Origin: Plumapathes pennacea
Lineage: Eukaryota; Cnidaria; Anthozoa; Antipatharia; Myriopathidae
Direction of reading: 5' to 3'
Assembly (NCBI GenBank): GCA_964036295.1
Contig: OZ038463.1
Location: forward strand, 21,005,069 to 21,069,068
DNA length: 64,000 bases
The notes under the pieces are model-generated. The model was not told the origin of the DNA and made no database searches. It was given only the letters and a program-made list of their open reading frames with translations. A program made the position numbers and the translations under genes. Of this stretch, positions 461-23,343 are shown one piece after another (within the stretch, counting starts at the first letter, position 1; each line of letters opens with the position of its first letter).

Positions 461-571
461 TATAATAAATATATTTATTCTGAGCACATCCTATCACACT
501 CACCTGTGATAACGTAATTCGACGGTTGCTTTTCTGACGGAAACGGTTGCAAGATGAAATACATGTGCATC
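461..571 (+). promoter_or_regulatory. Putative promoter plus first coding exon, repeated in every full unit
   Basis: TATAATAAATATATTTATT at 461 lies about 93 bp before an ATG at 554. The 18-nt exon ATGAAATACATGTGCATC (554-571) is followed directly by a consensus donor, GTAAGT. The same exon and donor recur without change at 1989-2006, 8796-8813, 9960-9977, 11124-11141, 12289-12306, 13453-13470, 14620-14637, 15789-15806, 16957-16974 and 19012-19029, eleven in all. Those at 1989 and 19012 are nearest to gene bodies A and B. The others could act as alternative first exons or be dead copies. Because whole units are nearly identical, conservation alone does not prove use. Confidence 0.55.
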
Positions 572-901
572 GTAAGTACCAATCAATACAAAGGAACACT
601 GTACTTTAATTGTTGATCATTTTTTTCAAAGGCTAGTAGACGGACACAGTTTAAAGTGTTGCATCCATTACGAAAATGTATTTTCAATTTTCTGTCAGTT
701 ATGTACGCGACATAAATGAAAATTTCCGGGATTAGTGTAAACAGTCCTGTTTTAACGGTGCGTTAGAGCTGGCAGATTTAGACGAGTCAGAGTTAAAAAG
801 CAAATGAAGAAAATAACGAGTTCGCCCTTTCTCAGGTAGAGAGCATAAGTTCTGAACCCACTACACGGTTTGGTGACGTGGATTGTAAGCGTATTCATTT
901 A

Positions 902-1113
902 GGGCGCATTCGATTGGGTCTATTCCGGAATAGGAATAGCGCTGCTGATCGGTAAAATTATTTGCTTTGGAGTTGATTAAGGTTAGGATGTATTAGGAGA
1001 TGTTCAAAATGCAAGCATGGAGGTTTTTGAACAAAATCTTCCCCAGAACAAGCAAAACTTTGGCTCATATTAGCTATATTCCTATTCCGAAATAGACTTA
1101 ATCGAACGCACCC
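902..1113. mobile_element. 212-bp MITE (PIF/Harbinger-like) inside the array unit
   Basis: The ends GGGCGCATTCGATTGGGTCT and the inverse of AATCGAACGCACCC form imperfect terminal inverted repeats of about 35 bp, flanked by TTA on both sides (899-901 and 1114-1116). A 3-bp TTA target duplication is typical of PIF/Harbinger elements; that assignment is from family knowledge. There is one copy per full unit, e.g. 2337-2548 and 9144-9354, always at the same place, so it inserted before the array was amplified. A 5'-truncated copy at about 7996-8193 opens the right-hand array block. Confidence 0.75.
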
Positions 1114-1988
1114 TTAAAGTCCATGTAAATCCATAGTAAAGAGATGTTGCTTTAATCTTGATACAAAAGGGACTGCTCGAGTTTTTTGCATGCAATAAAA
1201 CACTTCCACTCAAAAAAAAATTGAAATGTGAATATATGATTTGGTCAGTTACCACCTGGAAAGTGGTAATATTTTACTTTGTATTGGGATTATCCTTTTA
1301 TCAATCCCCAGAACAAGCAAAACTTTGGCTCATTTTAGCTATTCCTATTCCGAAATAGACTTAATCGAACGCACCCTTAAACTCCATGTAAATCCATAGT
1401 AAAAAGATCTTGCTTTAATCTTGATACAAAAGGGACTGCTCGAGTTTTTGCATGCAATGAAACACTTCCATATTATTTATGTTTACATCTCAAAAAAAAA
1501 ATTGAAATGTGAATATATGATTTGGTCAGTTACCACCTGGAAAGAAGTAATATTTTACTTTGTATTGGGATTATCCTTTTATCAAACCAAGATAAAGATA
1601 GCTGTATATATGCACATACATTTGCTCTGGTTAAGACAACGGTTTCTTTAATGTTGGGTAGCTATTTACAAATATTCGTCGACGACAGACTGAGAAGGTA
1701 GGACAAAGGGAGTCTCTGCCGAATTTGTGTGTTTTTTTTTTTTTTACAACGACGTATTATAATTACAGAAATGTGACTTCTGGCGTCGCCATTTCTGGTA
1801 CTTCGTTTGTGTTCAGTCAGTCTCGTGTTCAAGTTTCTTCCATTTGCCATGGACCGGTAAATTAACCAGTCGTAGCGTGCGTAGTATCAGTGCCATATAA
1901 TAAATATATTTATTCTGAGCACATCCTATCACACTCACTTGTGATAACGTAATTCGACGGTTGCTTTTCTGACGGAAACGGTTGCAAG

Positions 1989-4171
1989 ATGAAATACATG
2001 TGCATCGTAAGTACCAATCAATACAAAGGAACACTGTGCTTTAATTGTTGATCATTTTTTTCAAAGGCTAGTAGATGAACACAGTTCAAAGTGTTGCATC
2101 CATTTCGAAAATGTATTTTCAATTTTCTGTCAGTTATGTACGCGACATAAATGAAAATTTCCGGGATTAATGTAAACAGTCCTGTTTTAACGGTGCGTTA
2201 GAGCTGGCAGATTTAGACGAGTCAGAGTTAAAAAGCAAATGAAGAAAATAACGAGTTCGCCCTTTCTCAGGTAGAGAGCATAAGTTCTGAACCCACTACA
2301 CGGTTTACCGACGTGGATTGTAAGCGTATTCATTTAGGGCACATTCGATTGGGTCTATTCCGGAATAGGAATAACACTGTTGATCGGTAAAATTATTTGC
2401 TTTGGAGCTGATTAAGGTTAGGATGTATCAGGAGATGTTCAAAATGCAAGCATGGAGGTTTTTGAACAAAATTTTCCCCAGAACAAGCAAAACTTTGGCT
2501 CATTTTAGCTATATTCCTATTCCGAAATAGACTTAATCGAACGCACCCTTAAAGTCCATGTAAAATCCATAGTAAAAAGATGTTGCTTTAATCTTGATTC
2601 AAAAGGGACTGCTCGAGTTTTTGCATGCAATGAAATACTTCCATATTATTTGTGTTTACATCTCAAAATGAATATGACTTGGTCAGTTACCACCTGGGAA
2701 GTGGTAATATTTTACTTTGTATTGGGATTATAAGCACATAAATTTGCTCTGGTTGGTTAAAAATAACTACGCGTCCAGACTAAGTCAACGGTTTCATCGG
2801 TACATCTTTCCATTTATCCTTAGTATCCGGTTGAACTTAGCCCAACGAAATTATCATTACCTCCTCTTATGCAACTTCAATTATGCGCACAATTTCACAT
2901 GATTATTTATAATGTTTAGTTGTAACTTCCTGGACTAAACTTATGAAGTCAATGTTTTAAAAATAAAACACACAACTGTTTTCGGTTGCAGATTGTTCTT
3001 GTTTTTGTTGCGACTCTATGCTGCCTTATGGAAAGCAAATGCATAACCCATCAAAACTGCATTATCAGGTCGTATCTAAGAAATGCAATAAGCAGCCCAT
3101 CAACCCTTTTACAAGTGAAGACCAATGGAACATTACCTGTTGGATTAGACTTCAAAGGGAAAATTAGTGATACCTTACGAACCAGTAAGTTTTATATTTG
3201 TGGCATGACAATAATACACGCACTAAATGAGTTGTACAGTTAGATACTTTGCACCTATTTGCAAAAATGTAATATTTCAATCTCCAACAGAATTTCAAAT
3301 GAAAATGTGCACTGACCCACAAGGCTTAGCAGCTACATTACATTGGGCACATAACAAAACCTACATCGTGAAAGCCAAGTCAAGCCAGCTTCAATTACAG
3401 GTGATGTTTAAGCTCTTGCATGGGTCTAATGACGACTGTATTTGTATAATTTTTTGTAATAATATTAGGCATGTTTATAAGCTAGCCAGTAGCCAGTATG
3501 CCACTGTCTAAAATAAACCATTATATATTTGAACCAAACTATACCATAACTTATGCGCAAAAAATCGTAATAATGTTTTTCTTGACTCACCGTCTCACAG
3601 TCTAAATTCAAGTTCACATTAAGTGTATGAAAGAAAGTATCATGTGCGCTACAAAGAAATCCATGCATGCGCACTTTTGGAACTGTTGGCTCCAACTTGG
3701 TGAAGGGGGAGGGGAGGGGGGATATCGCATAAGAGCCGTAGAGTAAGCTAATCAATTTTGTTAAAAGCGCCAAAAAGATTTCACCAGGACACATATATTT
3801 CTTATGTAGTTTCCGACCCCAACCAGAACGCACCCCCTCCGCCCCGTCCACCCACCATAGATAGTGCTTGTTGCGCATGTGCTGTATCGGCGCCCCTTAC
3901 TACTGTATATAGGCGGGTGCAGCTGCGCCTTGACGTAATTTAAACAATAATGTTCATAAAATGTTATTCTTTACAGAAAGCGGCCAATGGAAACATCTCC
4001 AATGCAAATCGTTTCCTAGTACAAAGCTGGAATATACCATGCCGTCTCGCCTCGTGTGCCGTGTTCAAATCACTTTTAACAGGGAAATATATTGCGACAA
4101 ATCGAACAGGCATTCCTTACATGACTGGACAACGAAGAGATCGGGGGGCACTTATGCTTATCACATGTTAA
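1989..4171 (+). CDS. Secreted FGF-like protein, copy A (four exons)
   Basis: Exons are 1989-2006, 2992-3184, 3291-3400 and 3977-4171, all with GT-AG introns in phases 0, 1 and 0, giving 171 residues. Residues 1-21 form a signal peptide. The mature part has six cysteines (23, 29, 77, 129, 134, 171) and N-glycosylation sites at 51, 92, 113 and 149. The fibroblast growth factor match rests on LQVKTNGTL at 46-54 (FGF: LQIxPDGxV), NKTYIVKAKSSQL at 92-104 (FGF: xxYLAMxxxGxL), and KYIATNRTGIPYMTGQRRDR at 144-163 with following ALML (FGF: WYVALxRxGxxxxGxxTxxGQKAILFL). The 110-nt exon between a phase-1 and a phase-0 intron mirrors the canonical 104-nt middle FGF exon. A cytokine-like ligand acting outside the cell is the expected role. 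The nearest usable first exon is in the repeat unit at 1428; that at 554 is an alternative. Identification is by eye, so another beta-trefoil family remains possible. Confidence 0.7.
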
Positions 4172-4259
4172 GATATTTCATATTTGCGTATTGCAACTAG
4201 AATCTCGCAATGCATTGCAACATGTTTACCTCAGTCTCTTGAATAGCCAAGCACGTAAA

Positions 4260-4265
4260 AATAAA
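4260..4265 (+). terminator. Polyadenylation signal of copy A
   Basis: AATAAA lies 88 bp after the stop codon and is kept at the same distance in copy B (21310-21315). Confidence 0.55.
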
Positions 4266-5731
4266 GTTACACACCTTATTTGCGTTATTGATTGCTTATA
4301 TAAATACTAGCCCCGAGTTTCCAATAATTTATTTGAAAGCAAATTCTTCTTATAATGCTTATGTGATGTTTCAGGTTAGTTCTTGAATTCAAACCTTGTA
4401 TGTTCGGCTGGGAATGTTAGTACTGTAAGTACTGCACGTTAGGCTCGTGTCGTGGTCAGCTTTTACCGACTCCGCTTGTTCAGATTTATATATCGTAAAT
4501 GCTCCAACAAGTCCTCAAGTGACATATTTATAGATTGACCTTGCAGGTGGGTACTTAAAATAGAGGGTGTTTAAAAGACGGTGGGGGGGGGGGGGGCTAT
4601 TTAAAAAGAGATGACTATAAGAGGTACCGTATATTCTTAGTAAACAAAATTCTATATGTAGACAATTGTTCGACAAACAGTCTTTCGGCATGATCTTCTG
4701 GTACGGTGCGCTCAAACTGTTCAAATGGTTTCATTTATTTCATTCTTTTCTGAAGTGGGAAGTGTAAAGTTAAAATATATATCACCGAGCACCGAGCATT
4801 TAATGCGCGTCATTTGTCTTGTTTCTCTGCAATTTTGGTGCTCAAATGTGACAGCATGAAAGCCTCTTAGTGTGTCTTCATTTTGTTTTTAACACAATAA
4901 CAAACTGGGATAAAATTGGGCCATTCCAAAGACAGAACCATTCTGAAATCACTTGGTGATGGGATCATGTATCTTGTACAATCAAAACTTTACGTCGAAA
5001 CTATGCTCTAAAAGGTTTTTTTGAACGTTCAGGGGTAAAAGAAAAGAAAACCGGAATCAATAAAAACTTACTTCATCTTCTTAAACGCGGGTGTACACTA
5101 CGAAAAGGCTACACGGATATCATCTTAAGGAAGATTTTGATAATGATTCTATTAAACAAAACGGCTCCGGTTACAAAACAATGATGCGCAAAGGCGTCTT
5201 TATGAATTTTCCGAGCAAGAACATACGACAATGAATAGAAATTAAATCTGCTTGAACTCGTCGCCAATTTATTTGTTCATTTGAGCCCAACTGGACTCAA
5301 TATTGGACTGACCGAACCGTGAAATGATTTACATTTTTGAGAGTTCTGCCTTCGGGCCGGTAAAAGCGATATGCTTCTTGTTTGCTTTCTTAAAAATAAA
5401 ATTCCCACTGGCTTGTTTTTCCTGCATTAATGATTGCTTGTATATAGGAACTAGCTCCATGTTCCTAATAAATCAATTTGAGAGCAACACTTACTCTATA
5501 CTATTGCGCAGATCAATTTTCAAATGGCCACTGAATTTCGTGATGCTTCAGATTAGACCCAAGTTCGGTAGGAATATTAGGACAGCAGGCTCGTGGTAGC
5601 CTCAAGTTCATTTGGTCAGCATTTGCCGACAAACAAATCCTCGAGCTGGTTTAGGAATATAATCAAGACCCCCCTTTAACCACAGTGCTTTGCGCACGTG
5701 AATGCCCACGGCGGCCATACCGTATTTCGGG

Positions 5732-6259
5732 TACAATGGAACCTCCCGTATGACCACCTTTCGTTCGGTCGCTTGCGGGAGGTGGTCGCTCACGGGGATT
5801 TCTCACTATAGGAGACCATAGTGAGGTCCAGCTTTGACCCACAGCAAATGTCAAATAATTGCAGTTTTACTGAGAAAATAACACCTTGAGTTTTAAGAAA
5901 CAACCTTGTACCCTGTTGCACGTTACATTACATATGTTAGTGTTTTGTCCGGACCGGTCTCTGCAAGGAAGTTAATCCTTCCTCAGAAAATTGCTTTTTA
6001 GGAGCATAGAGTGGTCGCTTACAGGAGGTAAACAAAAAACAAAAACACACAAACACACAAACAAAAACAAACAAAAACAATAGAAATACTTAAACGGTTA
6101 GCCTCAAAGGTGTTCGAGGTCGCATATAAGAAGTGGTCGCTTACGAGAGGATTCACTAATAGTAATTTGACTGAGGGACCAATCGGTTATTTGGTAAGTG
6201 GTCGCCTAATTAAGAGAGGTGGTTGCTTACGGGAGGTGGCCGCTCAGGGAGGTTCACCG
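5732..6259. mobile_element. Non-autonomous inverted-repeat element with GGTCGCTTACGGGAGGTGG subrepeats
   Basis: The left end TACAATGGAACCTCCCGTAT and the right end, whose reverse complement begins CGGTGAACCTCCC, form short inverted termini. Inside are several copies of a 17-20 bp motif of the type GGTCGCTTACGGGAGGTGG, plus an (ACAAA)n tract near 6030. Ends resembling CAGTGGAACCTC are common in pogo-like metazoan elements, but there is no transposase here. The second copy is at 22802-23343. Confidence 0.55.
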
Positions 6260-6457
6260 AAACCGGCGTCCACGACAAGCTGAGGTGAAGGAGGAAAAGC
6301 AGGACTTGAGCTCTGACATCAAAAATGTACAACAGCTACTGTTCAACACCACGCTGTATGTGCTGAAACTCCAAAAATTTCACCAAGAAGGAAAGCAAAG
6401 TTTAATACGTCTGGAGGTTTTGATTGAAATTTGCAGGAGCGAGTTTTGCTGAAATGT

Positions 6458-7342
6458 CTCACCGTAGCTTTGGTTTCTGTTTTCGCACTGTTATCTTCTA
6501 TCCTGTTATCTGTTATCTTCCCAAAAGTATTTCGTTTCGCCACAGAAAGTTTCGTCGGGACTAAATATTTATCGGCGACAGCGGTATCCATCAAATATTT
6601 GTTTACGGCTATTCTCAAAGCTTCTGCGGTGAACGCGAGCCAAAATATTTTCCTAAAATCCAGTTTATCCGTGCATATTCCACAGAGCCAAATGGTGTTG
6701 AGTTTGAATGGGATGCACTTAACTTTTTCGCTCCACTACTTATGTGTGTTCTTTTATTAACTCGATACGTTTTTTCTATCAGGCTTTCGAGTATTTGTGC
6801 TCTGTAACAAACATAAAATTGAAAGCGAGGAATGTCACACGAGAGATGTTTACAATATCATTGCGGTTTTGTTCACAGTGTGTTCAGTCCATTTTGTGAC
6901 TGCAAACTCAATCCTCAGAATTATTTCGGTGTATTTTTCATTTCTTTTATTCAATGACCATTGCGAAACAAAGGCTACATGATCGAATGAAAGAAACACT
7001 TCAACAGGCAATGTACGATACGCAGAAGAATTTTATGATGCAACATATGATATGTACAGAGTAAAGCATAAAGCGTCATTGTTTTACGGCTAAAGCTCAC
7101 CGTAGCTTTGGTTTCTGTTTTCGCCCTGTTATCTTCCCAAAAGTATTTCGTGTCGCCACAGAAAGTTTCGTCGGGACTAAATATTTATCAGCGACAGCGG
7201 TATCCATCAAATATTTGTTTACGGCTATTCTCAAAGCTTCCGCGGTGAAGGCGAGCCAAACTCGTTCCCGAAAACCAGTTTATCCGTGCATATTCCACAG
7301 AGCCAAATGGTGTTGAGTTTGGATGGGATACAGTTAACTTTT
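6458..7342 (+). repeat. Local direct duplication of ~250 bp (6458-6727 and 7096-7342)
   Basis: Both segments begin CTCACCGTAGCTTTGGTTTC and end around GTGTTGAGTTTG(A/G)ATGGGAT, and are about 95 percent identical apart from a short deletion in the second. The deletion removes a tandem duplication of CTGTTATCTTC present in the first. The segment is absent from the other segmental-duplication copy. ORFs inside do not look coding. Confidence 0.8.
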
Positions 7343-7995
7343 ACACACAAGTAACGAACAATTCACTGGCCACATCTCGAGTTGTTTAGCAAAGTCAATT
7401 ACGTCATCGCCCAGCACGTGATAATATGAACCAATCACCGTGTGCTGATTTTCGACCCACAAAAACAAAAAATTAAAAATTAAAAATTAAAAAAATTGCG
7501 TTTTTAAGCTCGCTTGGGCCCCAAGCCTCCGCGAGCAATGAAGAGCAGGTTGATGTAATCGTGGGTTGTGATTAGAAACAAATGTTCGACTAAATCGATT
7601 GGGCATGAACATGAGATAAGTCAAGCATTACTCTCTTCTTTGCTGGCCGACCCTTTCACTCCGAAACTCAAAATTCTTTCAACGTTTTAAAGCAAGTGTA
7701 TTAGTCTTGTAATAATAGTATGTAGGTTTCAAATCTGGTTTCATTTGAGTAAGGTGTCAAAGGCCAAGTTCCTATATTGTATGATATTTTTCTGGTGAGA
7801 TACTGAAAGAGAAAATTGAAGTTCATCACTCTCGGCAGTCTCGCTCTAATCCAGAGATTGCTCATTACATAATTCTAGTAATGCGTGCGGCTAGTTGCCA
7901 CACCAATTTTGAATCCCAGCATCTGTCGCGTTTTCACGCGACTACTACTTGTTTATGAAAAGGGAAGGAGGGAGTGTAGGTACTTATAGGAAAAT
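7343..7995. other. Gene-free spacer between duplication copy A and the right array
   Basis: AT-rich unique sequence with a short A/T tract near 7470. I see no ORF, splice-bounded exon or repeat here. Confidence 0.6.
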
Positions 7996-10900
7996 GAGTC
8001 TATTCCGGAATAAGACTAGCGCTGCTGATCGGTAAAATTATTTGCTTTGGAGCTGATTAAGGTTAGGATGAATCAGGAAATGTTCAAAATGAGAGCATGG
8101 AGGTTTTTGAACAAAATCTTCCCCAGAACAAGGAAAATTTTGGTTCATTTTAACTATTCCTTAATTCCGGAATAGACCCAATCGAACGCACCCTTAAAGT
8201 CCATGTAAATCCATAGTAAAAAGATCTTGCTTTAATCTTGATACAAAAGGGACTGCTTGAGTTTTTGCATGCAATGAAATACTTTCATATTATTTACGTT
8301 TACATCTCAAAAAAAAAATTGAAATGCAAATATATGATTTGGTCAGTTACCACCTGTGGTAATATTTTACTTTTGTATTGGGATTATCCTTTTATCAAAC
8401 CTAAAGATAAAGATAGCTGTGGATATGCACATAAATTTGCTCTGGTTAAGACAACGGTTTCTTTAATGTTGGGTAGCTATTTACAAATATTCGTCGACGA
8501 CAGACTAAAAAGGTAGGACAAAGGGAGTCTCTGCCAAATTTGTGTGGTTTTTACAACGACGTATTATAATTACAGAAATGTGACTTGTGGCGTCGCCATT
8601 TCTGGTACTTCGATTGTGTTCAGTCAGTCTCGTGTTCAAGTTTCTTCCATTTGCCATGGACCGGTAGATTAACCAGTCGTAGCGTGCGTAGTATCAGTGC
8701 CATTTAATAAATATATTTATTCTGAGCACATCCTATCACACTCACCTGTGATAACGTAATTCGACGGTTGCTTTTCTGACGGAAACGGTTGCAAGATGAA
8801 ATACATGTGCATCGTAAGTACCAATCAATACAAAGGAACACTGTACTTTAATGGTTGATCATTTCTTTCAAAGGCTGGTAGATGGACACAGTTAAAAGTG
8901 TTGCATCCATTTCGAAAATGTATTTTCAATTTCCTGTCAGTTATGTACGCGACATAAATGAAAATTTCCGGGATTAGTGTAAACAGTCCTGTTTTAACGG
9001 TGCGTTAGAGCTGGCAGATTTAGACGAGTCAGAGTTAAAAAGCAAATGAAGAAAATAACGAGTTCGCCCTTTCTCAGGTAGAGAGCATAAGTTTTGAACC
9101 CACTACACGGTTTGGTGACGTGGATTGTAAGCGTATTCATTTAGGGCGCGTTCGATTGGGTCTATTCCGGAATAGGAATAGCGCTGCTGATCGGTAAAAT
9201 TATTTGCTTTGGAGCTGATTAAGGTTAGGATGAATCAGGAGATGTTCAAAATGCAAGCATGGAGATTTTGAACAAAATCTTCCCCAGAACAAGCAAAACT
9301 TTGGCTCATTTTAGTTATATTCCTATTCCGAAATAGACTTAATCGAACGCACCCTTAAACTCCATGTAAATCCATAGTAAAAAGATCTTGCTTTAATCTT
9401 GATACAAAAGGGACTGCTCGAGTTTTTGCATGCAATGAAATACTTCCATATAATTTGCGTTTACATCTCAAAAAAAAATTGAAATGTGAATATATGATTT
9501 GGTCAGTTACCACCTGGAAAATGGTTATATTTTACTTTGTATTGGGATTATCCTTTTATCAAACCTAAAAATAAAGATAGCTGTGGATCTGCACATACAT
9601 TTGCTCTGGTTAAGACAACGGTTTCTTTAATGTTGGGTAGCTATTTACAAATATTCGTCGACGACAGACTAAGAAGGTAGGACAAAGGGAGTCTCTGCCG
9701 AATTTGTGTGGTTTTTACAACGACGTATTATAATTACAGAAATGTGACTTCTGGCGTCGCCGTTTCTGGTACTTCGTTTGTGTTCAGTCAGTCTCGTGTT
9801 CAAGTTTCTTCCATTTGCCATGGACCGGTAAATTAACCAGTCGTAGCGTGCGTAGTATCAGTGCCATATAATAAATATATTTATTCTGAGCACATCCTAT
9901 CACACTCACCTGTGATAACGTAATTCGACGGTTGCTTTTCTGACGGAAACGGTTGCAAGATGAAATACATGTGCATCGTAAGTACCAATCAATACAAAGG
10001 AACACTGTACTTTCATTGTTGCCCATTTTTTTCAAAGGCTAGTAAATGGACACAGTTTAAAGTGTTGCATCCATTTCGAAAATGTATTTTCAATTTTCTG
10101 TCAGTTATGTACGCGACATAAATTAAAATTTCCGGGATTAGTGTAAACAGTCCTGTTTTAACGGTGCGTTAGAGCTGGCAGATTTAGACGAGTCAGAGTT
10201 AAAAAGCAAATGAAGAAAATAACGAGTTCGCCCTTTCTCAGGTAGAGAGCATAAGTTCTGAACCCACCACACGGTTTGGTGACGTGGATTGTAAGCGTAT
10301 TCAATTAGGGCGCATTCTATTGGGTCTATTCCGAAATAGGAATAGCGCTGCTGATCGGTAAAATTATTTGCTTTGGAGCTGATTAAGGTTAGGATGTATC
10401 AGGAGATGTTTAAAATGTAAGCATGGAGGTTTTTGAACAAAATCTTCCCCAGAACAAGCAAAACTTTGGCTCATATTAGTTATATTCCTATTCCGAAATA
10501 GACTTAATCGAACGCACCCTTAAAGTCCATGTAAATCCATACTAAATAGATGTTGCTTTAATCTTGATACAAAAGGGACTGCTCGAGTTTTTGCATGCAA
10601 TGAAATACTTCCATATAATTTGCGTTTACATCTCAAAAAAAATTGAAATGTGAATATATGATTTGGTCAGTTACCACCTGGAAAATGGTTATATTTTACT
10701 TTGTATTGGGATTATCCTTTTATCAAACCTAAAGATAAAGATAGCTGTGGATATGCACATAAATTTGCTCTGGTTAAGACAACGGTTTCTTTAATGTTGG
10801 GTAGCTATTTACAAATATTCGTCGACGACAGACTAAGAAAGTAGGACAAAGGGAGTCTCTGCCGAATTTGTGTGGTTTTTACAACGACTTATTATAATTA

Positions 10901-13900
10901 CAGAAATGTGACTTGTGGCGTCGCCGTTTCTGGTACTTCGTTTGTGTTCAGTCAGTCTCGTGTTCAAGTTTCTTCCATTTGCCATGGACCGGTAAATTAA
11001 CCAGTCGTAGCGTGCGTAGTATCAGTGCCATATAATAAATATATTTATTCTGAGTACATCCTATCACACTCACCTGTGATAACGTAATTCGACGGTTGCT
11101 TTTCTGACGGAAACGGTTGCAAGATGAAATACATGTGCATCGTAAGTACCAATCAATACAAAGGAACCCTGTACTTTAATTGTTGACCATTTTTTTCAAA
11201 GGCTAGTAGATTGACACAGTTTAAAGTGTTGCATCCATTTCGAAAATGTATTTTCAATTTTCTGTCAGTTATGTACGCGACATAAATGAAAATTTCCGGG
11301 ATTAGTGTAAACAGTCCTGTTTTAACGGTGCGTTAGAGCTGGCAGATTTAGACGAGTCAGAGTTAAAAAGCAAATGAAGAAAATAACGAGTTCGCCCTTT
11401 CTCAGGTAGAGAGCATAAGTTCTGAACCCACTACACGGTTTGGTGACGTGGATTGTAAGCGTATTTAATTAGGGCGCATTCTATTGGGTCTATTCCGGAA
11501 TAGGAATAGCGCTGCTGATCGGTAAAATTATTTGCTTTGGAGCTGATTAAGGTTAGGATGTATCAGGAGATGTTCAAAATGCAAGCATGGAGGTTTTTGA
11601 ACAAAATCTTCCCCAGAACGAGCAAAACTTTGGCTCATATTAGCTATATTCCTATTCCGAAATAGACTTAATCGAACGCACCCTTAAACTCCATGTAAAT
11701 CCATAGTAAAAAGATCTTGCTTTAATCTTGATACAAAAGGGACTGCTCGAGTTTTTGCATGCAATGAAATACTTCCATATAATTTGCGTTTACATCTCAA
11801 AAAGAAATTGAAATGTGAATATATGATTTGGTCAGTTACCACCTGGAAAGTGGTAATATTTTACTTTCTATTGGGATTATCCTTTTATCAAACCTAAAGA
11901 TAAAGATAGCTGTGGATATGCACATAAATTTGCTCTGGTTAAGACAACGGTTTCTTTAATGTTGGGTAGCTATTTACAAATATTCGTCGACGACAGACTA
12001 AGAAGGTAGGACAAAGGGAGTCTCTGCCGAATTTGTGTGGTTTTTACAACGACGTATTATAATTACAGAAATGTGACTTCTGGCGTCGCCGTTTCTGGTA
12101 CTTCGTTTGTGTTCAGTCAGTCTCGTGTTCAAGTTTCTTCCATTTGCCATGGACCGGTAAATTAACCAGTCGTAGCGTGCGTAGTATCAGTGCCATATAA
12201 TAAATATATTTATTCTGAGCACATCCTATCACACTCACCTGTGATAACGTAATTCGACGGTTGCTTTTCTGACGGAAACGGTTGCAAGATGAAATACATG
12301 TGCATCGTAAGTACCAATCAATACAAAGGAACACTGTACTTTCATTGTTGACCATTTTTTTCAAAGGCTAGTAAATGGACACAGTTTAAAGTGTTGCATC
12401 CATTTCGAAAATGTATTTTCAATTTTCTGTCAGTTATGTACGCGACATAAATTAAAATTTCCGGGATTAGTGTAAACAGTCCTGTTTTAACGGTGCGTTA
12501 GAGCTGGCAGATTTAGACGAGTCAGAGTTAAAAAGCAAATGAAGAAAATAACGAGTTCGCCCTTTCTCAGGTAGAGAGCATAAGTTCTGAGCCCACCACA
12601 CGGTTTGGTGACGTGGATTGTAAGCGTATTTAATTAGGGCGCATTCTATTGGGTCTATTCCGAAATAGGAATAGCGCTGCTGATCGGTAAAATTATTTGC
12701 TTTGGAACTGATTAAGGTTAGGATGTATCAGGAGATGTTTAAAATGCAAGCATGGAGGTTTTTGAACAAAATCTTCCCCAGAACAAGCAAAACTTTGGCT
12801 CATTTTAGTTATATTCCTATTCCGAAATAGACTTAATCGAACGCACCCTTAAAGTCCATGTAAATCCATACTAAATAGATGTTGCTTTAATCTTGATACA
12901 AAAGGGACTGCTCGAGTTTTTGCATGCAATGAAATACTTCCATATAATTTGCGTTTACATCTCAAAAAAAATTGAAATGTGAATATATGATTTGGTCAGT
13001 TACCACCTGGAAAATGGTTATATTTTACTTTGTATTGGGATTATCCTTTTATCAAACCTAAAGATAAAGATAGCTGTGGATATGCACATAAATTTGCTCT
13101 GGTTAAGACAACGGTTTCTTTAATGTTGGGTAGCTATTTACAAATATTCGTCGACGACAGACTAAGAAAGTAGGACAAAGGGAGTCTCTGCCGAATTTGT
13201 GTGGTTTTTACAACGACTTATTATAATTACAGAAATGTGACTTGTGGCGTCGCCGTTTCTGGTACTTCGTTTGTGTTCAGTCAGTCTCGTGTTCAAGTTT
13301 CTTCCATTTGCCATGGACCGGTAAATTAACCAGTCGTAGCGTGCGTAGTATCAGTGCCATATAATAAATATATTTATTCTGAGTACATCCTATCACACTC
13401 ACCTGTGATAACGTAATTCGACGGTTGCTTTTCTGACGGAAACGGTTGCAAGATGAAATACATGTGCATCGTAAGTACCAATCAATACAAAGGAACCCTG
13501 TACTTTAATTGTTGACCATTTTTTTCAAAGGCTAGTAGATGGACACAGTTTAAAGTGTTGCATCCATTTCGAAAATGTATTTTCAATTTTCTGTCAGTTA
13601 TGTACGCGACATAAATGAAAATTTCCGGGATTAGTGTAAACAGTCCTGTTTTAACGGTGCGTTAGAGCTGGCAGATTTAGACGAGTCAGAGTTAGAAAGC
13701 AAATGAAGAAAATAACGAGTTCGCCCTTTCTCAGGTAGAGAGCATAAGTTCTGAACCCACTACACGGTTTGGTGACGTGGATTGTAAGCGTATTTAATTA
13801 GGGCGCATTCTATTGGGTCTATTCCGGAATAGGAATAGCGCTGCTGATCGGTAAAATTATTTGCTTTGGAGCTGATTAAGGTTAGGATGTATCAGGAGAT

Positions 13901-16900
13901 GTTCAAAATGCAAGCATGGAGGTTTTTGAACAAAATCTTCCCCAGAACGAGCAAAACTTTGGCTCATATTAGCTATATTCCTATTCCGAAATAGACTTAA
14001 TCGAACGCACCCTTAAACTCCATGTAAATCCATAGTAAAAAGATCTTGCTTTAATCTTGATACAAAAGGGACTGCTCGAGTTTTTGCATGCAATGAAATA
14101 CTTCCATATAATTTGCGTTTACATCTCAAAAAACAAAATTGAAATGTGAATATATGATTTGGTCAGTTACCACCTGGAAAATGGCTATATTTTACTTTCT
14201 ATTGGGATTATCCTTTTATCAAACCTAAAGATAAAGATAGCTGTGGATATGCACATAAATTTGCTCTGGTTAAGACAACGGTTTCTTTAATGTTGGGTAG
14301 CTATTTACAAATATTCGTCGACGACAGACTGAGAAGGTAGGACAAAGGGAGTCTCTGCCGAATTTGTGTGGTTTTTACAACGACGTATTATAATTACAGA
14401 ATTGTGACTTCTGGCGTCGCCGTTTCTGGTACTTCGTTTGTGTTCAGTCAGTCTCGTGTTCAAGCTTCTTCCATCTGCCATGAACCGGTAAATTAACCAG
14501 TCGTAGCGTGCGTAGTATCAGTGCCATATAATAAATATATTTATTCTGAGCACATCCTATCACACTCACCTGTGATAACGTAATTCGACGGTTGCTTTTC
14601 TGACGGAAACGGTTGCAAGATGAAATACATGTGCATCGTAAGTACCAATCAATACAAAGGAACACTGTACTTTAATTGTTGATCATTTTTTTCAAAGGCT
14701 AGTAGATGGACACAGTTTAAAGTGTTGCATCCATTTCGAAAATGTATTTTCAATTTTCTGTCAGTTATGTACGCGACATAAATGAAAATTTCCGGGATTA
14801 GTGTAAACAGTCCTGTTTTAACGGTGCGTTAGAGCTGGCAGATTTAGACGAGTCAGAGTTAAAAAGCAAATGAAGAAAATAACGAGTTCGCCCTTTCTCA
14901 GGTAGAGAGCATAAGTTCTGAACCCACTACACGGTTTGGTGACGTGGATTGTAAGCGTATTCATATAGGGCGCATTCTATTGGGTCTATTCCGGAATAGG
15001 AATAGCGCTGCTGATCGGTAAAATTATTTGCTTTGGAGCTGATTAAGGTTAGGATGTATCAGGAGATGTTCAAAATGCAAGCATGGAGGTTTTTGAACAA
15101 AATCTTCCCCAGAACGAGCAAAACTTTGGCTCATATTAGCTATATTCCTATTCCGAAATAGACTTAATCGAACGCACCCTTAAACTCCATGTAAATCCAT
15201 AGTAAATAGATGTTGCTTTAATCTTGATACAAAAGGGACTGCTCAAGTTTTTGCATGCAATGAAATACTTTCATATAATTTGCGTTTACATCTCAAAAAA
15301 AAAGAAATTGAAATGTGAATATATGATTTGGTCAGTTACCACCTGGAAAGTGGTAATATTTTACTTTCTATTGGGATTATCCTTTTATCAAACCTAAAGA
15401 TAAAGATAGCTGTGGATATGCACATAAATTTGCTCTGGTTAAGACAACGGTTTCTTTAATATTGGGTAGGTATTTACAAATATTCGTCGACGACAGACTA
15501 AGAAGGTAGGACAAAGGGAGTCTCTGCCGAATTTGTGTGGTTTTTACAACGACGTATTATAATTACAGAATTGTGACTTCTGGCGTCGCCGTTTCTGGTA
15601 CTTTGTTTGTGTTCAGTCAGTCTCGTGTTCAAGCTTCTTCCATCTGCCATGGACCGGTAAATTAACCAGTCATAGCGTGCGTAGTATCAGTGCCATATAA
15701 TAAATATATTTATTCTGAGCACATCCTATCACACTCACCTGTGATAACGTAATTCGACGGTTGCTTTTCTGACGGAAACGGTTGCAAGATGAAATACATG
15801 TGCATCGTAAGTACCAATCAATACAAAGGAACACTGTACTTTAATTGTTGATCATTTTTTTCAAAGGCTAGTAGATGGACACAGTTTAAAGTGTTGCATC
15901 CATTTCGAAAATGTATTTTCAATTTTCTTTCAGTTATGTACGCGACATAAATGAAAATTTCCGGGATTAGTGTAAACATTCCTGTTTTAACGGTGCGTTA
16001 GAGCTGGCAGATTTAGACGAGTCAGAGCTAAAAAGCAAATGAAGAAAATAACGAGTTCGCCCTTTCTCAGGTAGAGAGCATAAGTTCTGAACCCACTACA
16101 CGGTTTGGTGACGTGGATTGTAAGCGTATTCATATAGGGCGCATTCTATTGGGTCTATTCCGGAATAGGAATAGCGCTGCTGATCGGTAAAATTATTTGC
16201 TTTGGAGCTGATTAAGGTTAGGATGTATCAGGAGATGTTCAAAATGCAAGCATGGAGGTTTTTGAACAAAATCTTCCCCAGAACGAGCAAAACTTTGGCT
16301 CATATTAGCTATATTCCTATTCCGAAAAAGACTTAATCGAACGCACCCTTAAACTCCATGTAAATCCATAGTAAATAGATGTTGCTTTAATCTTGATACA
16401 AAAGGGACTGCTCGAGTTTTTGCATGCAATGAAATACTTCCATATAATTTGCGTTTACATCTCAAAAAAAAAAAATCGAAATGTGAATATATGATTTGGT
16501 CAGTTACCACCTGGAAAGTGGTAATATTTTATTTTGTATTGGGATTATCCTTTTATCAAACCTAAAGATAAAGATAGCTGTGGATATGCACATAAATTTG
16601 CTCTGGTTAAGACAACGGTTTTTTTAATGTTGGGTAGCTATTTACAAATATTCGTCGACGACAGACTAAGAAGGTAGGACAAAGGGAGTCTCTGCCGAAT
16701 TTGTGTGGTTTTTACAACGACGTATTATAATTACAGAAATGTGACTTCTGGCGTCGGCGTTTCTGGTACTTCGTTTGTGTTCAGTCAGTCTCGTGTTCAA
16801 GTTTCTTCCATCTGCCATGGACCGGTAAATTAACCAGTCGTAGCGTGCGTAGTATCAGTGCCATATAATAAATATATTTATTCTGAGCACATCCTATCAC

Positions 16901-17815
16901 ACTCACCTGTGATAACGTAATTCGACGGTTGCTTTTCTGACGGAAATGGTTGCAAGATGAAATACATGTGCATCGTAAGTACCAATCAATACAAAGGAAC
17001 CCTGTACTTTAATTGTTGATCATTTCTTTCAAAGGCTAGTAGATGAACACAGTTCAAAGTGTTGCATCCATTTCGAAAATGTATTTTCAATTTTCTGTCA
17101 GTTATGTACGCGACATAAATTAAAATTTCCAGGATTAGTGTAACATTCCTGTTTTAACGGTGCGTTAGAGCTGGCAGATTTAGACGAATCAGAGTTAAAA
17201 AGCAAATGAAGAAAATAACGAGTTTGCCCTTTCTCGGGTAGAGAGCATAAGTTATGAACCCACTACACGGTTTGGTGACGTGGATTGTAAGCGTATTCAT
17301 ATAGGGCGCATTCTATTGGGTCTATTCCGGAATAGGAATAGCGCTGCTGATCGGTAAAATTATTTGCTTTGGAGCTGATTAAGGTTAGGATGTATCAGGA
17401 GATGTTCAAAATGCAAGCATGGAGGTTTTTGAACAAAATCTTCCCCAGAACAAGCAAAACTTTGGCTCATTTTAGCTATATTCCTATTCCGAAATATACC
17501 TAATCGAACGCACCCTTAAAGTCCATGTAAATCCATAGTAAATGGATGTTGCTTTAATCTTGATACAGAAGGGACTGCTCGAGTTTTTTGCATGCAATGA
17601 AATACTTTCATATAATTTGTGTTTACATCTCAAAAAAAAAATTGAAATGTGAATATATGATTTGGTCAGTTACCACCTGGAAAGTGGTAATATTTTATTT
17701 TGTATTGGGATTATTCTTTTATCAAACCTAAAGATAAAGATAGCTGTGGATATGCACATAAATTTGCTCTGGTTAAGACAACGGTTTCTTTAATGTTGGG
17801 TAGCTATTTACAATT

Positions 17816-18780
17816 ATTATACAACTCCCTTAGTAACGTGAAAATACCGCATAGTAACGTGCGAATAACTCCATAGACACGTAAAAAAGATACAGCCGTA
17901 TTCAACGTTGCTAAGGAAAAAGCTTTTTCTTCATTCGCTGCCGTTAATTCTTTTCTTTCGCTTTTCGTATAAAAGTCGCCCTGTGCACAGCTGGTATTTA
18001 CATCACTTCTAGAGATTATTAAGCAAAGAAAGAAGCACAGAATTTAAACTGACCTGGCTTACTATCCGATACGCAAAATCGAGCACGGAGACCAGCTTCT
18101 TCGTCAGAAAAATCAACTGAATTTGCCGCAACATAACTAATCTTCCGTTCCACAAAATGTCAGACCACACACCACAGTTCGGTTATCAGGCCATAGTGTT
18201 TCCAGCCAGATCAATATTTCTGAGAGCAGTTTAAGAATCCCTGTCAATCTCGAAACGAGTTCTTGTCGGCATTCAACACGACAGCCGTTGGATTTCCCTC
18301 GGCGTGTAATTCCAGTCCAAGATCTATGGCATCGACTTGCAACAACAGGCAATGATTACCTCTATCGAGAAACGGCAATGCGAACTGTACCACCACTGGT
18401 CACAAGATAAAGTCCTTTTCATACTTCATAAGCGAGGGGAAGGCGAGAGCTGGCTGTTTGTTGATTCATGGCACTCGACGAAAATGAAAATGTTGACACA
18501 TCTCGTTCCTCCAATTTGTTCTGTTTATGACCACATTATGTGAGGCAGTATCTCAGATCTCCCCGCAAACTTTGTTTAAAGTACCTCTTTCAGCTTCAAT
18601 GTTACTCGGCTCAGAAAACAACGACTAGAAGTACTGCAAGTACAAAATCCGCGCTTGCTTACACTGCACACGGCACTAAACTTGATTGACATATCGCGCG
18701 CGGAAAATATGTCACTTTGGTCACACAACGTACCGCGATTTAAAAATAATTTACATCTTTTACTAAGGGAGTTGTATAAT
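17816..18780. mobile_element. 965-bp non-autonomous element with 20-bp terminal inverted repeats
   Basis: ATTATACAACTCCCTTAGTA at 17816-17835 is the exact reverse complement of 18761-18780. Two short overlapping ORFs in opposite directions (18137-18352 minus, 18337-18543 plus) resemble no transposase I know. Its insertion is coupled to loss of the unit segment between the TATTTACAA stretch and the TATA-like region, about 220 bp, so the event was not a simple insertion. Confidence 0.85.
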
Positions 18781-18786
18781 AAATAA

Positions 18787-18926
18787 CTTATTAGACACTT
18801 AGGCGTGTAGTACGGCTGTATATTTTTACTCGTCGTTTGTATTTTGGCTCGCCGAAGCGGCTCGCCAAAATACTGCACGACTCGTAAAAATATACAGCCG
18901 TACTACACGCCTAAGTGTCTAATAAG
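18787..18926. mobile_element. 140-bp near-perfect fold-back element
   Basis: The arm starting CTTATTAGACACTTAGGCGT is mirrored by the arm ending at 18926, with almost no mismatches over about 60 bp. The apex is CTCGCCGAAGCGGCTCG (18848-18864). It follows the 965-bp element by 6 bp. Such high arm identity suggests recent origin or gene conversion. Confidence 0.85.
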
Positions 18927-19011
18927 ATATATTTATTCTGAGCACATCCTATCACACTCACCTGTGATAACGTAATTCGACGGTTGCTTTTCTGACGGAA
19001 ACGGTTGCAAG

Positions 19012-21221
19012 ATGAAATACATGTGCATCGTAAGTACCAATCAATACAAAGGAACACTGTACTTTAATTGCTGATCATTTTTTTCAAAGGCTAGTAGATG
19101 GACACAGTTTAAAGTGTTGCATCCATTTCGAAAATGTATTTTCAATTTTCTGTCAGTTATGTACGCGACATAAATGAAAATTTCCGGGATTAGTGTAAAC
19201 AGTCCTGTTTTAACGGTGCGTTAGAGCTGGCAGATTTAGACGAGTCAGAGCTAAAAAGCAAATGAAGAAAATAACGAGTTCGCCCTTTCTCAGGTAGAGA
19301 GCATAAGTTATGAACCCACTACACGGTTTGGTGACGTGGATTGTAAGCGTATTCATTTAGGGCGCATTCGATTGGGTCTATTCCGGAATAGGAATAGCGC
19401 TGCTGATCGGTAAAATTATTTGCTTTGGAGCTGATTAAGGTTAGGATGTATCAGGAGATGTTCAAAATGCAAGCATGGAGGTTTTTGAACAAAATCTTCC
19501 CCAGAACGAGCAAAACTTTGGCTCATATTAGCTATATTCCTATTCCGAAATAGACTTAATCGAACGCACCCTTAAAGTCCATGTAAATCCATAGTAAAAG
19601 GATGTTGCTTTAATCTTGATATAAAAGGGACTGCTCGAGCTTTTGCATGCAATGAAATACTTCCATATTATTTACGTTTACATCTCAAAAAAAAATCGAA
19701 ATGTGAATATATGATTTGGTCAGTTACCACCTGGAAAGTGGTAATATTTTACTTTGTATTGGGATTATAAGCACATACATTTGCTCTGGTTGGTTAAAAA
19801 TAACTGCGCGTCCAGACTAAGTCAACGGTTTCATCGGTGCATCTTTCCATTTATCCTTAGTATCCGGTTGAACTTAGCCCAACGAAATTATCATTACCTC
19901 CTCTTATGCAACTTCAATTATGCGCACAATTTCACATCATCACTTATAATGTTGATGCAACTTCCTGGATTAAACTTATGAAGTCAATGTTTTAAAAATA
20001 AAACACACAACTGTTTTCGGTTGCAGATTGTTCTTGTTTTTGTTGCGACTCTATGCTGCCTTATGGAAAGCAGATGCATAACCCATCAAAACTGCACTAT
20101 CAGGTCGTATCTAAGAAATGCAAGAATGAGCCTATATTCCCTTTTACAAGTGAAGATCAATGGAACATTACCTGTTGGATTAGACTTCAAAGGGAAAATT
20201 AGTGATACCTTACGAACCAGTAAGTTTTATATTTGTGGCATGACAAAAATACACGCACTAAATGAGTTGTACAGTTAGATACTTTGCACCTATTTGCAAA
20301 ATTGTAATATTTCAATCTCCAACAGAATTTCAAATGAAAATGTGCACTGTTCCACAAGGCATAGCAGCTACATTACATTGGGCACATAATAAAACCTACA
20401 TCGTGAAAGTCAAGTCAAACCAGCTTCAATTACAGGTAATGTTTAAGCTCTTGCATGGGTCTAATGACGACTGTATTTGTATATAATTTTTTGTAATAAT
20501 ATTAGGCATATTTATAAGCTAGCCAGTAGCCAGTATGCCACTGTCTAAAATAAACCATTATATATTTGAAACAAACTATACCATAACTTATGCGCAAAAA
20601 ATCGTAATACTGTTTTTTTTTTTTTTGACTCACCGTCTCACAGTCTAAATTCAAGTTCACATTAAGTGTATGAAAGAAAGTATCATGTGCGCTACAAAGA
20701 AATCCATGCATGTGCACTTTTGGAACTGTTGGCTCCAACTTGGTGAAGGGGAAGGGGGGGGGGGGGGGGGATGTCGCATAAGAGCCGTAGAGTAAGCTAA
20801 TCAATTTTGTTACAAGAGCCAAAAATATTTCACCAGGACACATATATTTCTTATGTAGTTTCCGACCCCAACCAGAACCCACCCCCTCCGCCCCCGTCCA
20901 CCCACCATAGATAGTGGTTGTTGCGCATGTGCTGTATCGGCGCCCCTTACTACTGTATATAGGCGGGTGCAGCTTCGCCTTGACGTAATTTACACAATAA
21001 TGTTCATAAAATGTTATTCTTTACAGAAAACGGCCAATGGAAACATCTCCAATGCAAATCGTTTCCTAGTACAAACCGGGAATATACCATGCCCTGACGC
21101 CTCGTGTGCCGTGTTCAAATCACTTTTAACAGGGAAATATATTGCGACAACTTCAGCAGGCATGCCTTACATGACTGGACAACGAAAACATCGGGGGGCA
21201 TTTATGCTTATCACATGTTAA
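19012..21221 (+). CDS. Secreted FGF-like protein, copy B (four exons)
   Basis: Exons are 19012-19029, 20027-20219, 20326-20435 and 21027-21221, with the same lengths (18, 193, 110, 195 nt) and intron phases as copy A, giving 171 residues. About 86 percent of residues match A. All cysteines are kept, the N-glycosylation site at 149 is lost, and changes cluster at residues 39-44, 124-131, 149-153 and 161-166. The reading frame of the last exon is set by this comparison: the competing frame is open in A but has a stop here. Nine identical first exons lie between 8796 and 19012, and any could in principle join exon 2. The one used here is the nearest. The 3' end carries AATAAA at 21310. Confidence 0.7.
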
Positions 21222-21309
21222 GATATTTCATATTTGCGTATTGCTACTAGAATCTCGCAATGCATTGCAACATGTTTACCTCAGTCTCTTGAATAGCCAA
21301 GCACGTAAA

Positions 21310-21315
21310 AATAAA
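21310..21315 (+). terminator. Polyadenylation signal of copy B
   Basis: AATAAA lies 88 bp after the stop codon, at the same distance as in copy A. Confidence 0.55.
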
Positions 21316-22801
21316 GTTACACACCTTATTTGCGTTATTGATTGCTTATATAAATACTAGCCCCGAGTTTCCAATAATTTATTTAAAGGCAAACTTTTCT
21401 TATAATGCTTATGTGATGTTTCAGGTTAGTTCTTGAATTCAAACCGTATGTTCGGCTGGGAATGTTAGTACTGTACGTTAAGCTCGTGTCGTGGTCAGCT
21501 TTTACCGACTCCGCTTGTTCAGATTTATATATCGTAAATGCTCCAACAAGTCCTCAAGTGACATATTTATAGATTGACCTTGCAGGTGGGTACTTAAAAT
21601 AGCGGGTGTTCAAAAGACGCGGGGGGGGGGGGGGGGGGGGCTATTTAAAAAGAGATGACTATAAGAGGTACCGTATATTCTTAGTGAACAAAATTCTATA
21701 TGTAGACAATCGTTCGACAAACAGCCTTTCGGCATGATCTTCTGGTACGGTGCGCTCAAACTGTTCAAATGGTTTCATTTATTTTATTCTTTTCTGAAGT
21801 GGGAAGTGTAAAGTTAAAATATATATCACCGAGCACCGAGCATTTAATGCGCGTCATTTGTCTTGTTTCTCTGCAGTTTTGGTGCTCAAATGTGACAGTA
21901 TGAAAGCCTCTTAGTGTGTCTTCATTTTGTTTTTAACACAATAACAAACTGGGATAAAATTGGGCCAAGACAGAACCATTCTGAAAGCACTTGGTGATGG
22001 GATCATGCATCTTGTACAATCAAAACTTTACGTCGAAACTCTGCTCTAAAAGGTTTTTTTGAACGTTCTGGGGTAAAAGAAAAGAAAACCGGAATCAATA
22101 AAAACTTACTTGATCTTCTTAAACGCGGTTGTGCACTACGAAAAGGCTACACGGATATCATCTTAAGGAAGATTTTGATAAGGATTCTATTAAACAAAAC
22201 GGCTCCGGTTACAAAACAATGATGCGCAAAGGCGTCTTCATGAATTTTTCGAGCAAGAACATACGACAATGAATAGAAATTAAATCTGCTTGAACTCGTC
22301 GCCAATTTATTTGTTCATTTGAGCCCAACTGGACTCAATATTGGACTGACCGAACCGTGAAATGATTTACATTTTTGAGAGTTCTGCGTTCGGGCCGATA
22401 AAAGCGATATGCTTCTTGTTTGCTTTCTTAAAAATAAAATTCCCACTGGCTTGTTTTTCCTGCATTAATGATTGCTTGTATATAGGAACTAGCTCCATGT
22501 TCCTTATAAATCAATTTGAGAGCAACACTTCCTCTATACTATTGCGCGAATCAATTTTCAAATGGCCACTGAATTTCGTCATGCTTCAGATTAGACCCAA
22601 GTTCGGTAGGAATATTAGGACAGCAGGCTCGTGGTAGTCTCAAGTTCAATTGGTGAGCATTTGCCGACAAACAAAATCCTCGAGCTGGTTCAGGAATATA
22701 CCAGTGTTCGTGCCATGCTCTTCCTGATTCGTCCAAGACCCCCCTTTAACCACAGTGCTTTGCGCACGTGAATGCCCACGGCGGCCATACCGTATTTCGG
22801 G

Positions 22802-23343
22802 TACAATGGAACCTCCCGTATGACCATCCTTCGTTCGGTCGCTTGCGGGAGGTGGTCGCTCACGGGGATTTCTCACTATGGAAGACCATAGTGAGGTCCA
22901 GCTTTGACCCTCAGCAAATGTCAAATAATTGCAGTTTTACTGAGAAAATAACACCTTGAGTTTTAAGAAACAACCTTGTACCCTGTTGCACGTTACATTA
23001 CATATGTTAGTGTTTTGTCCGGACCGGTCTCTGCAAGGAAGTTAGTCCTTCCTCAGAAAATTGCTTTTTAGGAGCAGAGAGCGGTCGCTTACAGGAGGTA
23101 AACAAAAAACAAAAACAAAAAACACACAAACAAAAAAACACAAACAAAAACAAACAAAAACAATAGAAATACTTAAACGGTTAGCCTCAAAGGTGTTCGA
23201 GGTCGCATATAAGAAGTGGTCGCTTACGAGAGGATTCACTAATAGTAATTTGACTGAGGGACCAATCGGTTATTTGGTAAGTGGTCGCCTAATTAAGAGA
23301 GGTGGTTGCTTACGGGAGGTGGCCGCTCAGAGAGGTTCACCGA
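22802..23343. mobile_element. Second copy of the GGTCGCTTACGGGAGGTGG element
   Basis: Counterpart of 5732-6259, carried along with the segmental duplication. Its internal (ACAAA)n tract near 23105-23160 is longer than in the first copy. Confidence 0.55.

Follow-up and report, generated by a model that had tools for sequence, protein, structure and literature searches.

Two neighbouring genes, A and B, lie in the window (the whole 64,000-nucleotide stretch of DNA analysed), and positive selection probably drove their proteins apart after duplication, toward a predicted divergence in binding specificity. Nonsynonymous differences between the copies exceed the local noncoding rate by a factor of roughly two to three, changes fall on both branches, and both gene models are intact. 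The excess is an episode that followed one duplication; it is not family-wide.

Genes A and B (Table 1) are recent tandem duplicates encoding a small, cysteine-bearing protein predicted to be secreted. Both frames are open, with 171 residues plus a stop each, and all splice sites are intact. Nine cysteines occupy the same positions in the two copies, which bears out an earlier note on this DNA that described open frames with all cysteines kept. A leader judged by eye suggests secretion of the product. The short first exon of gene A has a conserved counterpart in paralogues C2 and C3.

Table 1. Features of the A/B locus (positions in the window)
Feature	Position	Strand	Details
Array of 11 promoter/exon-1 cassettes	469..19226	+	ATGs at 554, 1989, 8796, 9960, 11124, 12289, 13453, 14620, 15789, 16957, 19012
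Duplicated block around A	1904..6460	+	aligned with 18927-23540; source of noncoding rate
Gene A exon 1	1989..2006	+	ATG, GTAAGT donor; encodes MKYMCI, start of signal-peptide-like leader
Gene A exon 2	2992..3184	+	AG acceptor, GT donor, open frame; predicted remainder of leader and first third of mature protein
Gene A exon 3	3291..3400	+	
Gene A exon 4 including stop codon	3977..4171	+	
Transposon-like dispersed insert	17819..18919	.	junctions; takes the place of cassette positions -304 to -92, numbered from the B ATG
Duplicated block around B	18927..23540	+	aligned with block around A
Gene B exon 1	19012..19029	+	
Gene B exon 2	20027..20219	+	
Gene B exon 3	20326..20435	+	
Gene B exon 4 including stop codon	21027..21221	+	

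The coding sequences of A and B differ at 30 nucleotides: none in exon 1, 10 in exon 2, six in exon 3, and 14 in exon 4, the counts for exons 2-4 being those given earlier (30 in 498 nt). Twenty-five codons are affected, and the residue is altered in 24 of them. The sole silent change, AAC/AAT as first reported, is at codon 92. None of the 14 differences in exon 4 was counted as silent, and exon 3 taken alone points in the opposite direction (pN 0.045, pS 0.092).

The neutral rate was taken from the duplicated block surrounding each gene, in which 109 of 4010 aligned noncoding sites differ (2.7 percent). The lowest value, 1.2 percent, belongs to the 85 sites 5' of the ATG, and the highest, 3.7 percent, to intron 1. 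The background of about 1-2 percent proposed in the earlier note was too low. Its counts for intron 2 (2 of 106 sites) and for the first 150 bases past the stop (one difference) are correct; both regions lie at the low end of the noncoding range. Nonsynonymous sites are changed more often than this background (27/392 versus 109/4010; odds ratio 2.6, two-sided Fisher p 4.8e-5), and the most divergent of 352 overlapping 498-site noncoding windows holds 23 differences, compared with 30 in exons 2-4. Pairwise dN/dS is 2.2-3.2 by three counting methods and 2.86 by separate NG86. When coding sequence and noncoding block are fitted jointly by maximum likelihood, the block serving as neutral rate, the A/B omega is 2.94 (p 9e-6), or 2.30 (p 0.003) once a double-mutation parameter is added. 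The comparison with noncoding divergence that had been suggested thus places omega above 1.

These figures weigh against relaxed constraint combined with chance, in which both copies would drift with omega near 1 and the scarcity of silent changes would be sampling noise. Such drift is unlikely, because it cannot push nonsynonymous change beyond the local noncoding rate, and because frames, splice sites, and cysteines have been retained. What speaks for it is that tests restricted to coding sequence are marginal, both for nonsynonymous against synonymous changes (one-sided Fisher p 0.049) and for omega above 1 (p 0.031, or p 0.048 with double mutations). It also gains from an omega of 1.03 in C2/C3, the next youngest pair after A/B, and from seven broken copies, for which neutrality is expected and whose pairwise omega reaches 2.92 by chance (0.49-2.92, median 1.47, 18 finite of 21 pairs). 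This set, which left out three more tblastn copies (in L033, L035, and L036), was rejected as a neutral control because each pair has too few differences to calibrate omega.

Wider comparisons, all covering genes of one genome, confine the signal to the A/B pair. In a branch model of six genes (one partial), omega is 3.2 on the A and B branches and 0.45 on the others, and omega = 1 is rejected (p 0.041). A branch-site test of the A/B branches gives p 0.001, with an unstable class omega of 37 and with sites that are merely the changed sites. Among the 15 paralogue pairs, 13 have an omega of 0.32-0.55, and only A/B shows an excess. A family-wide class of positively selected sites was not significant in the six genes, one partial (M2a versus M1a, p 0.135). 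C1 entered with exons 3-4 only, and tblastn showed exon 2 to be absent from the C1 DNA examined. The earlier diagnosis of diversifying selection therefore survives for the A/B pair and fails as a property of the family. The addition of paralogues, named in the earlier note as a possible refutation, divides in the same way: it upholds the high ratio on the A/B branches, but the other 14 of 15 pairs reach at most 1.03.

The pair C2/C3 has 26 changed residues and A/B has 24; four positions (22, 124, 130, and 161) are common to both, about 3.8 being expected by chance (hand count), and shared hot spots were rejected. Intron 2 of C2/C3 aligns poorly (33 percent different, 705 gap columns) and was excluded as a neutral rate.

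A second alternative holds that the 24 codons reflect a few events, either blocks converted from an older third paralogue or clustered multi-nucleotide mutations. The changed codons are modestly clustered when pooled, with 10 gaps of at most two codons versus a mean of 6.2 expected (p 0.04), and to this extent the clustering reported earlier stands. It does not extend to single lineages, as neither set of derived changes is clustered by itself (p 0.77 and 0.38). Polarised with C1-C3 as outgroup, the 30 changed nucleotides comprise 13 A-derived, 11 B-derived, and six undecided (hand count), some polarities being uncertain because the outgroup alignment is gapped in variable stretches. A- and B-derived changes interleave at residues 39-44 and 149-153, and they alternate within a single codon twice, at codons 43 and 79. 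Because of this interleaving and the lack of clustering within lineages, pseudogene decay, one burst of mutation, and one conversion tract all fit badly, including the third-paralogue conversion that the earlier note had raised against its own reading.

The choice of what counts as one event also matters. Merging neighbouring changes without regard to lineage leaves 19 exon versus 97 noncoding events with a 2-nt gap (p 0.10) and 16 versus 87 with a 5-nt gap (p 0.21), so that the excess computed on all exon sites loses significance, in line with multi-nucleotide events. Merging by lineage (by hand) leaves 21 events, 20 of them nonsynonymous. The nonsynonymous events still exceed the noncoding rate (one-sided p 0.001-0.009); for the full set of 21, set against every exon site, the one-sided p is 0.009-0.061.

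Overall, conversion or clustered mutation is highly improbable. Five derived codons match the distant paralogue D (83 and 124 in B; 92, 109, and 153 in A), as conversion might predict, but these are scattered single sites. Derived states are absent from C1-C3, by construction of the polarity. No closer third copy was found among the best-scoring candidates of the whole genome (four exon 2 DNA matches and 26 protein-level matches), and imported blocks would bring silent changes as well. In C2/C3, divergence is 4.4 percent in exon 2, as against 9 percent in the 5' flank and 13 percent in intron 3, a contrast that either conversion or constraint could produce.

Conversion could also act between A and B themselves. 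Under such concerted evolution, introns and flanks would be reset, and exons would appear fast since selection shields them. Homogenisation of the array would fit the likeness of the cassettes, which are 97-100 percent alike over 300 bp around exon 1, with one at 90-91 percent (ungapped comparison). This account is very unlikely. Silent sites in the exons diverge as little as noncoding DNA (NG86 dS 0.026 versus 0.027), so the exons would need resetting too, except at nonsynonymous sites, and the account still invokes selection for difference, by another route.

Positive selection after duplication is the preferred reading. On this reading, once A and B had arisen by tandem duplication, amino-acid changes built up in each of them above the neutral rate, many falling in a few shared stretches, while the scaffold residues did not change. 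The most likely mechanism would be positive selection, acting on both copies, for a difference in what they bind, be it ligand, receptor, or glycan; selection against conversion that homogenises the exons may have assisted. The changed stretches would be loops, and the target a binding surface. Duplicated genes for small secreted proteins are well known to come under positive selection, and the signal is ordinary in kind; it points to specific residues. Secreted venom and immune families offer examples of tandem duplicates under positive selection. Genes A and B resemble these in duplication followed by omega above 1 and in encoding a small, probably secreted, cysteine-bearing protein; they differ in that only one of 15 pairs is affected and that first-exon cassettes far outnumber gene bodies.

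The A/B product is probably a single FGF-like beta-trefoil domain, to judge from weak but consistent profile matches. With an exon-4 family profile, 22 different PDB sequences match at E values of up to 10: 15 designed trefoils and seven of FGF-1. The best E value, 1.3e-5, is to designed proteins (no single stretch passes alone), and natural FGF-1 is reached at E 0.93. The Symfoil designs among these matches are derived from FGF-1. A whole-protein profile matches 16 PDB sequences (best E 0.0021), four of which are not trefoils, and a structure model of exon 4 alone has a pLDDT of 52. Evidence for threefold symmetry is limited to one of three repeat pairs. The global option of hhalign found no similarity among three putative repeats, and in profile Smith-Waterman comparisons repeat 1 versus 2 was beaten or equalled by 3 of 300 shuffles, with nothing for the other two pairs. 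No clear internal repeat was seen.

Other searches yielded no name for the family. Pfam gave no family for any of the six members up to E 10, nor for gene A alone. A V-set match (Pfam, hand-made consensus) was sub-threshold at E 0.14, the NCBIfam SecF match concerned one member only (E 0.044) and is unrelated, and NCBIfam gave no FGF match. The PDB gave no match to the gene A sequence and a single unrelated match to the exon-2 profile (E 1.1). No relatives outside this genome were found in the protein collection with gene A or the alignment as query, and a narrow literature search found no description of the family. The signal of selection makes this family, nameless in every library searched, a likely participant in recognition, whether in immunity, symbiosis, fertilisation, or contact with prey or competitors.

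Comparison with known trefoils shows likenesses and differences. Like fibroblast growth factors of the FGF-1 type, the product is probably secreted, with about 150 mature residues, and the exon-4 stretch that matches FGF-1 and designed trefoils has G-K-Y-I-A near its centre. Unlike them, the family lacks a Pfam match, and reaches FGF-1 only at E about 1, and A and B have nine cysteines. Hydra PPOD lectins are described as secreted beta-trefoil cuticle proteins, taxon-specific and expanded by duplication, with about 270 residues, two trefoil domains, and six similar repeats with a Trp in each (PMC3531485). The A/B proteins share with PPODs, so described, the lack of a detected relative outside their own genome in protein searches; they differ in having 171 residues, one invariant Trp column in the family alignment, and no clear repeat pattern of that kind. 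In a further report, the beta-trefoil is a ricin-type lectin and the positively selected gene is ferritin type I, which is not relevant here (PMC2291459).

The cassette array is the less common part of the anatomy. Its ATGs are spaced 1164-1169 bp apart from 8796 to 16957, and a further exon-1 copy upstream of the window brings the total to at least 12 cassettes, compared with only two gene bodies among the best-scoring candidates of a genome search. The amplified cassettes may feed transcripts into bodies A and B, which raises the question of whether amplifying a promoter and first exon can increase or redirect expression while the coding body stays uncopied. Constraint on the promoter was considered and rejected. 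Cassette positions -110 to +23 have 4 of 134 variable columns versus 99 of 1026 elsewhere (Fisher p 0.009, nine of 11 cassettes; 3/109 versus 66/578 in a first look at 11 cassettes, summed by hand), but the stretch was picked post hoc, and the p values from scan tests are 0.52 and 0.10.

A broader interpretation, itself unlikely, would make the locus a device for diversification. It would encode a secreted trefoil, acting as ligand or lectin and perhaps confined to one lineage, with two bodies selected apart at contact loops and at least 12 interchangeable cassettes supplying transcription to both, body diversification and promoter dosage evolving independently. Gene B would then depend on cassettes farther upstream. 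Part of its own upstream region is replaced by the transposon, near full-length copies of which occur on many contigs at 96-99 percent identity.

Positive selection acting on the recent A/B pair is quite probably the best explanation for the differences between these tandem duplicates, a class of phenomenon already known, in a family that has no name in the libraries searched. The counts behind the earlier note were reproduced exactly: 10, 6, and 14 A/B differences in exons 2, 3, and 4, with 24 of 25 changed codons nonsynonymous, 2 of 106 sites differing in intron 2, and 1 of 150 after the stop. Its noncoding background had been set too low; the duplicated block from which the noncoding rate is taken (1904-6460 around A, aligned with 18927-23540 around B) differs at 109 of 4010 noncoding sites. 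Nonsynonymous divergence (27/392) still exceeds this rate (p = 4.8e-5).

Three methods from a single package put pairwise dN/dS between 2.2 and 3.2 (ratios worked out by hand), and our own NG86 implementation counts 27 nonsynonymous against 3 synonymous differences, for an omega of 2.86. Likelihood with the codon mutation rate tied to the noncoding block yields omega 2.94 (p = 9e-6), and 2.30 (p = 0.003) once a parameter for double mutations within a codon is added. Coding-only likelihood yields p = 0.031, or 0.048 with double mutations. Given these noncoding-tied and coding-only p values, evidence for the A/B excess is good with a local neutral rate and marginal without one. Nonsynonymous compared with synonymous sites give a one-sided p of 0.049. 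Random mutation of gene A is expected to leave 25-28 percent of changes silent (kappa 1.5 or 3.1), and the probability of at most 3 silent changes in 30 is then 0.041 or 0.019, respectively. The excess is located in exons 2 (pN 0.065, pS 0.011) and 4 (pN 0.098, pS 0); exon 3 is reversed (pN 0.045, pS 0.092).

A single conversion tract or mutation burst might mimic selection, and the excess does disappear when neighboring changes are merged without regard to lineage (merging gap of 2 nt, p = 0.10; of 5 nt, p = 0.21). Either event, however, predicts blocks of a single polarity, and the observed polarities alternate. With paralogues C1-C3 as outgroup, a hand count of the 30 differing nucleotides assigns 13 to A and 11 to B and leaves 6 undecided, and changes derived in A and in B alternate within residues 39-44 and 149-153. 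The 24 nonsynonymous codons are mildly clustered when pooled (p = 0.04). Among those of decided polarity (11 per lineage), changed codons show no clustering in either lineage (p = 0.77 for A, 0.38 for B), and a B-derived codon lies at most 2 residues from 6 of the 11 A-derived ones (p = 0.08). If neighboring changes are merged only within a lineage (21 events, grouped by hand), nonsynonymous events remain more frequent than noncoding ones (one-sided p = 0.001-0.009); all 21 events against noncoding sites give a one-sided p of 0.009-0.061, varying with the noncoding count chosen.

Paralogues were sought across the genome (290 Mb, 24 contigs; the window is 64 kb at 21.005-21.069 Mb of contig 2), which spliced genes and the nearby GPCR, Maf-type bZIP, and fibronectin III domains mark clearly as eukaryotic. 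Among the best candidates scored, a DNA search with exon 2 found at least 4 matches; a protein search found at least 26 exon-level matches, those listed all being on the same contig. Gene models were built for C1 (exons 3-4 only), C2, C3, and D. Over 15 paralogue pairs omega is 2.86 for A/B, 1.03 for C2/C3, and 0.32-0.55 for the remaining 13. Codon models of the six genes (165 codons, C1 partial) give omega 0.53 under one ratio; a branch model assigns 3.2 to the A and B branches and 0.45 elsewhere (better than a single ratio at p = 0.0003; omega 1 on A and B rejected at p = 0.041). A branch-site test yields p = 0.001, and the omega it estimates for the selected class, 37, is unstable. The earlier proposal of diversifying selection is thus supported for the recent pair, where omega exceeds 1 with the local neutral rate, and is not supported for the family as a whole, as M2a finds no significant site class over M1a across the six genes (p = 0.135). 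Between C2 and C3, the 5' flank has diverged by 9 percent and intron 3 and exon 3 by 13 percent each, with pN 0.151 and pS 0.082 in exon 3 and pN 0.093 and pS 0.186 in exon 4. Since paralogue pairs, family models, and C2/C3 exons show no consistent repeat of it, the nonsynonymous excess is an episode of the A/B pair.

C2 and C3 differ at 9 of 205 sites in exon 2 (loci L031 and L032), below their flank and intron; a conversion tract, or else constraint, is possible. Broken exon 3-4 copies of this family are dispersed at 15.60-15.70 Mb of contig 2 (loci L038-L044) and at loci L033, L035, and L036. All seven at 15.6-15.7 Mb have one in-frame exon 4 stop in common, suggesting that a copy already broken was probably then multiplied.

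Features located in the window
Feature	Positions	Strand	Remarks
Gene A exons 1-4	1989-2006, 2992-3184, 3291-3400, 3977-4171		GT-AG introns, open frame
Dispersed element in B cassette	17814-18926		23-bp inverted repeats, large terminal hairpin
Gene B exons 1-4	19012-19029, 20027-20219, 20326-20435, 21027-21221		GT-AG introns, open frame
Rhodopsin-type GPCR	24391-25425		Uninterrupted open frame; Pfam 7tm_1, E 2.4e-45
Long Q-rich stretch, then fibronectin III domain	33634-36459	minus	Open frame
Galactosyltransferase domain	57095-58207		Open frame
bZIP Maf domain	61532-62074		Open frame

A and B each encode 171 residues plus a stop, with nine cysteines at identical positions and an N-terminal hydrophobic leader that, by eye, looks like a signal peptide. 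No family member examined matches Pfam, and neither of two protein searches found relatives in the protein collection. The balance of profile matches leans toward a beta-trefoil. The exon-4 profile, run against the PDB up to E 10, finds 22 distinct sequences, 15 designed and 7 FGF-1 (natural FGF-1 at E 0.93). Eleven of the 15 are listed by name as trefoils; 4qkr and 4qks, listed solely as de novo proteins, and 4f34 and 3snv, listed solely as Symfoils, we take to be trefoils as well. Of the 16 matches to the whole-protein profile, 12 are of the designed-trefoil/FGF-1 kind; the exon-2 profile found nothing relevant in the PDB. The best E-values are inflated, because the same segment matches a symmetric designed trefoil three times, as seen in the whole-protein-profile alignments. 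If the trefoil reading holds, the changed stretches would be inter-strand loops. Potential N-glycosylation sites occur at 149 in A only and at 28 in B only.

Exon 1, also kept in C2 and C3, belongs to a promoter/exon-1 cassette of ∼1164 bp, 11 copies of which, with identical first exons, form an array at 469-19226. A further exon-1 copy lies upstream of the window at 21,004,191 of contig 2 (L047) and a solo copy near 20,971,069 (L055). These counts are lower bounds, the cassette search having listed part of the known copies; only two gene bodies of A/B type were found among the best candidates of the genome search. A scan over the full cassette gives no significant constraint. B's cassette has lost positions -304 to -92 (213 bp) and carries an element of ∼1.1 kb instead, copies of which occur on many contigs at 96-99 percent identity (40 of 929 first-look candidates scored). 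A dispersed repeat of ∼220 bp inside the cassette is likewise present on many contigs, and the GPCR frame lies directly downstream of gene B's duplicated block.
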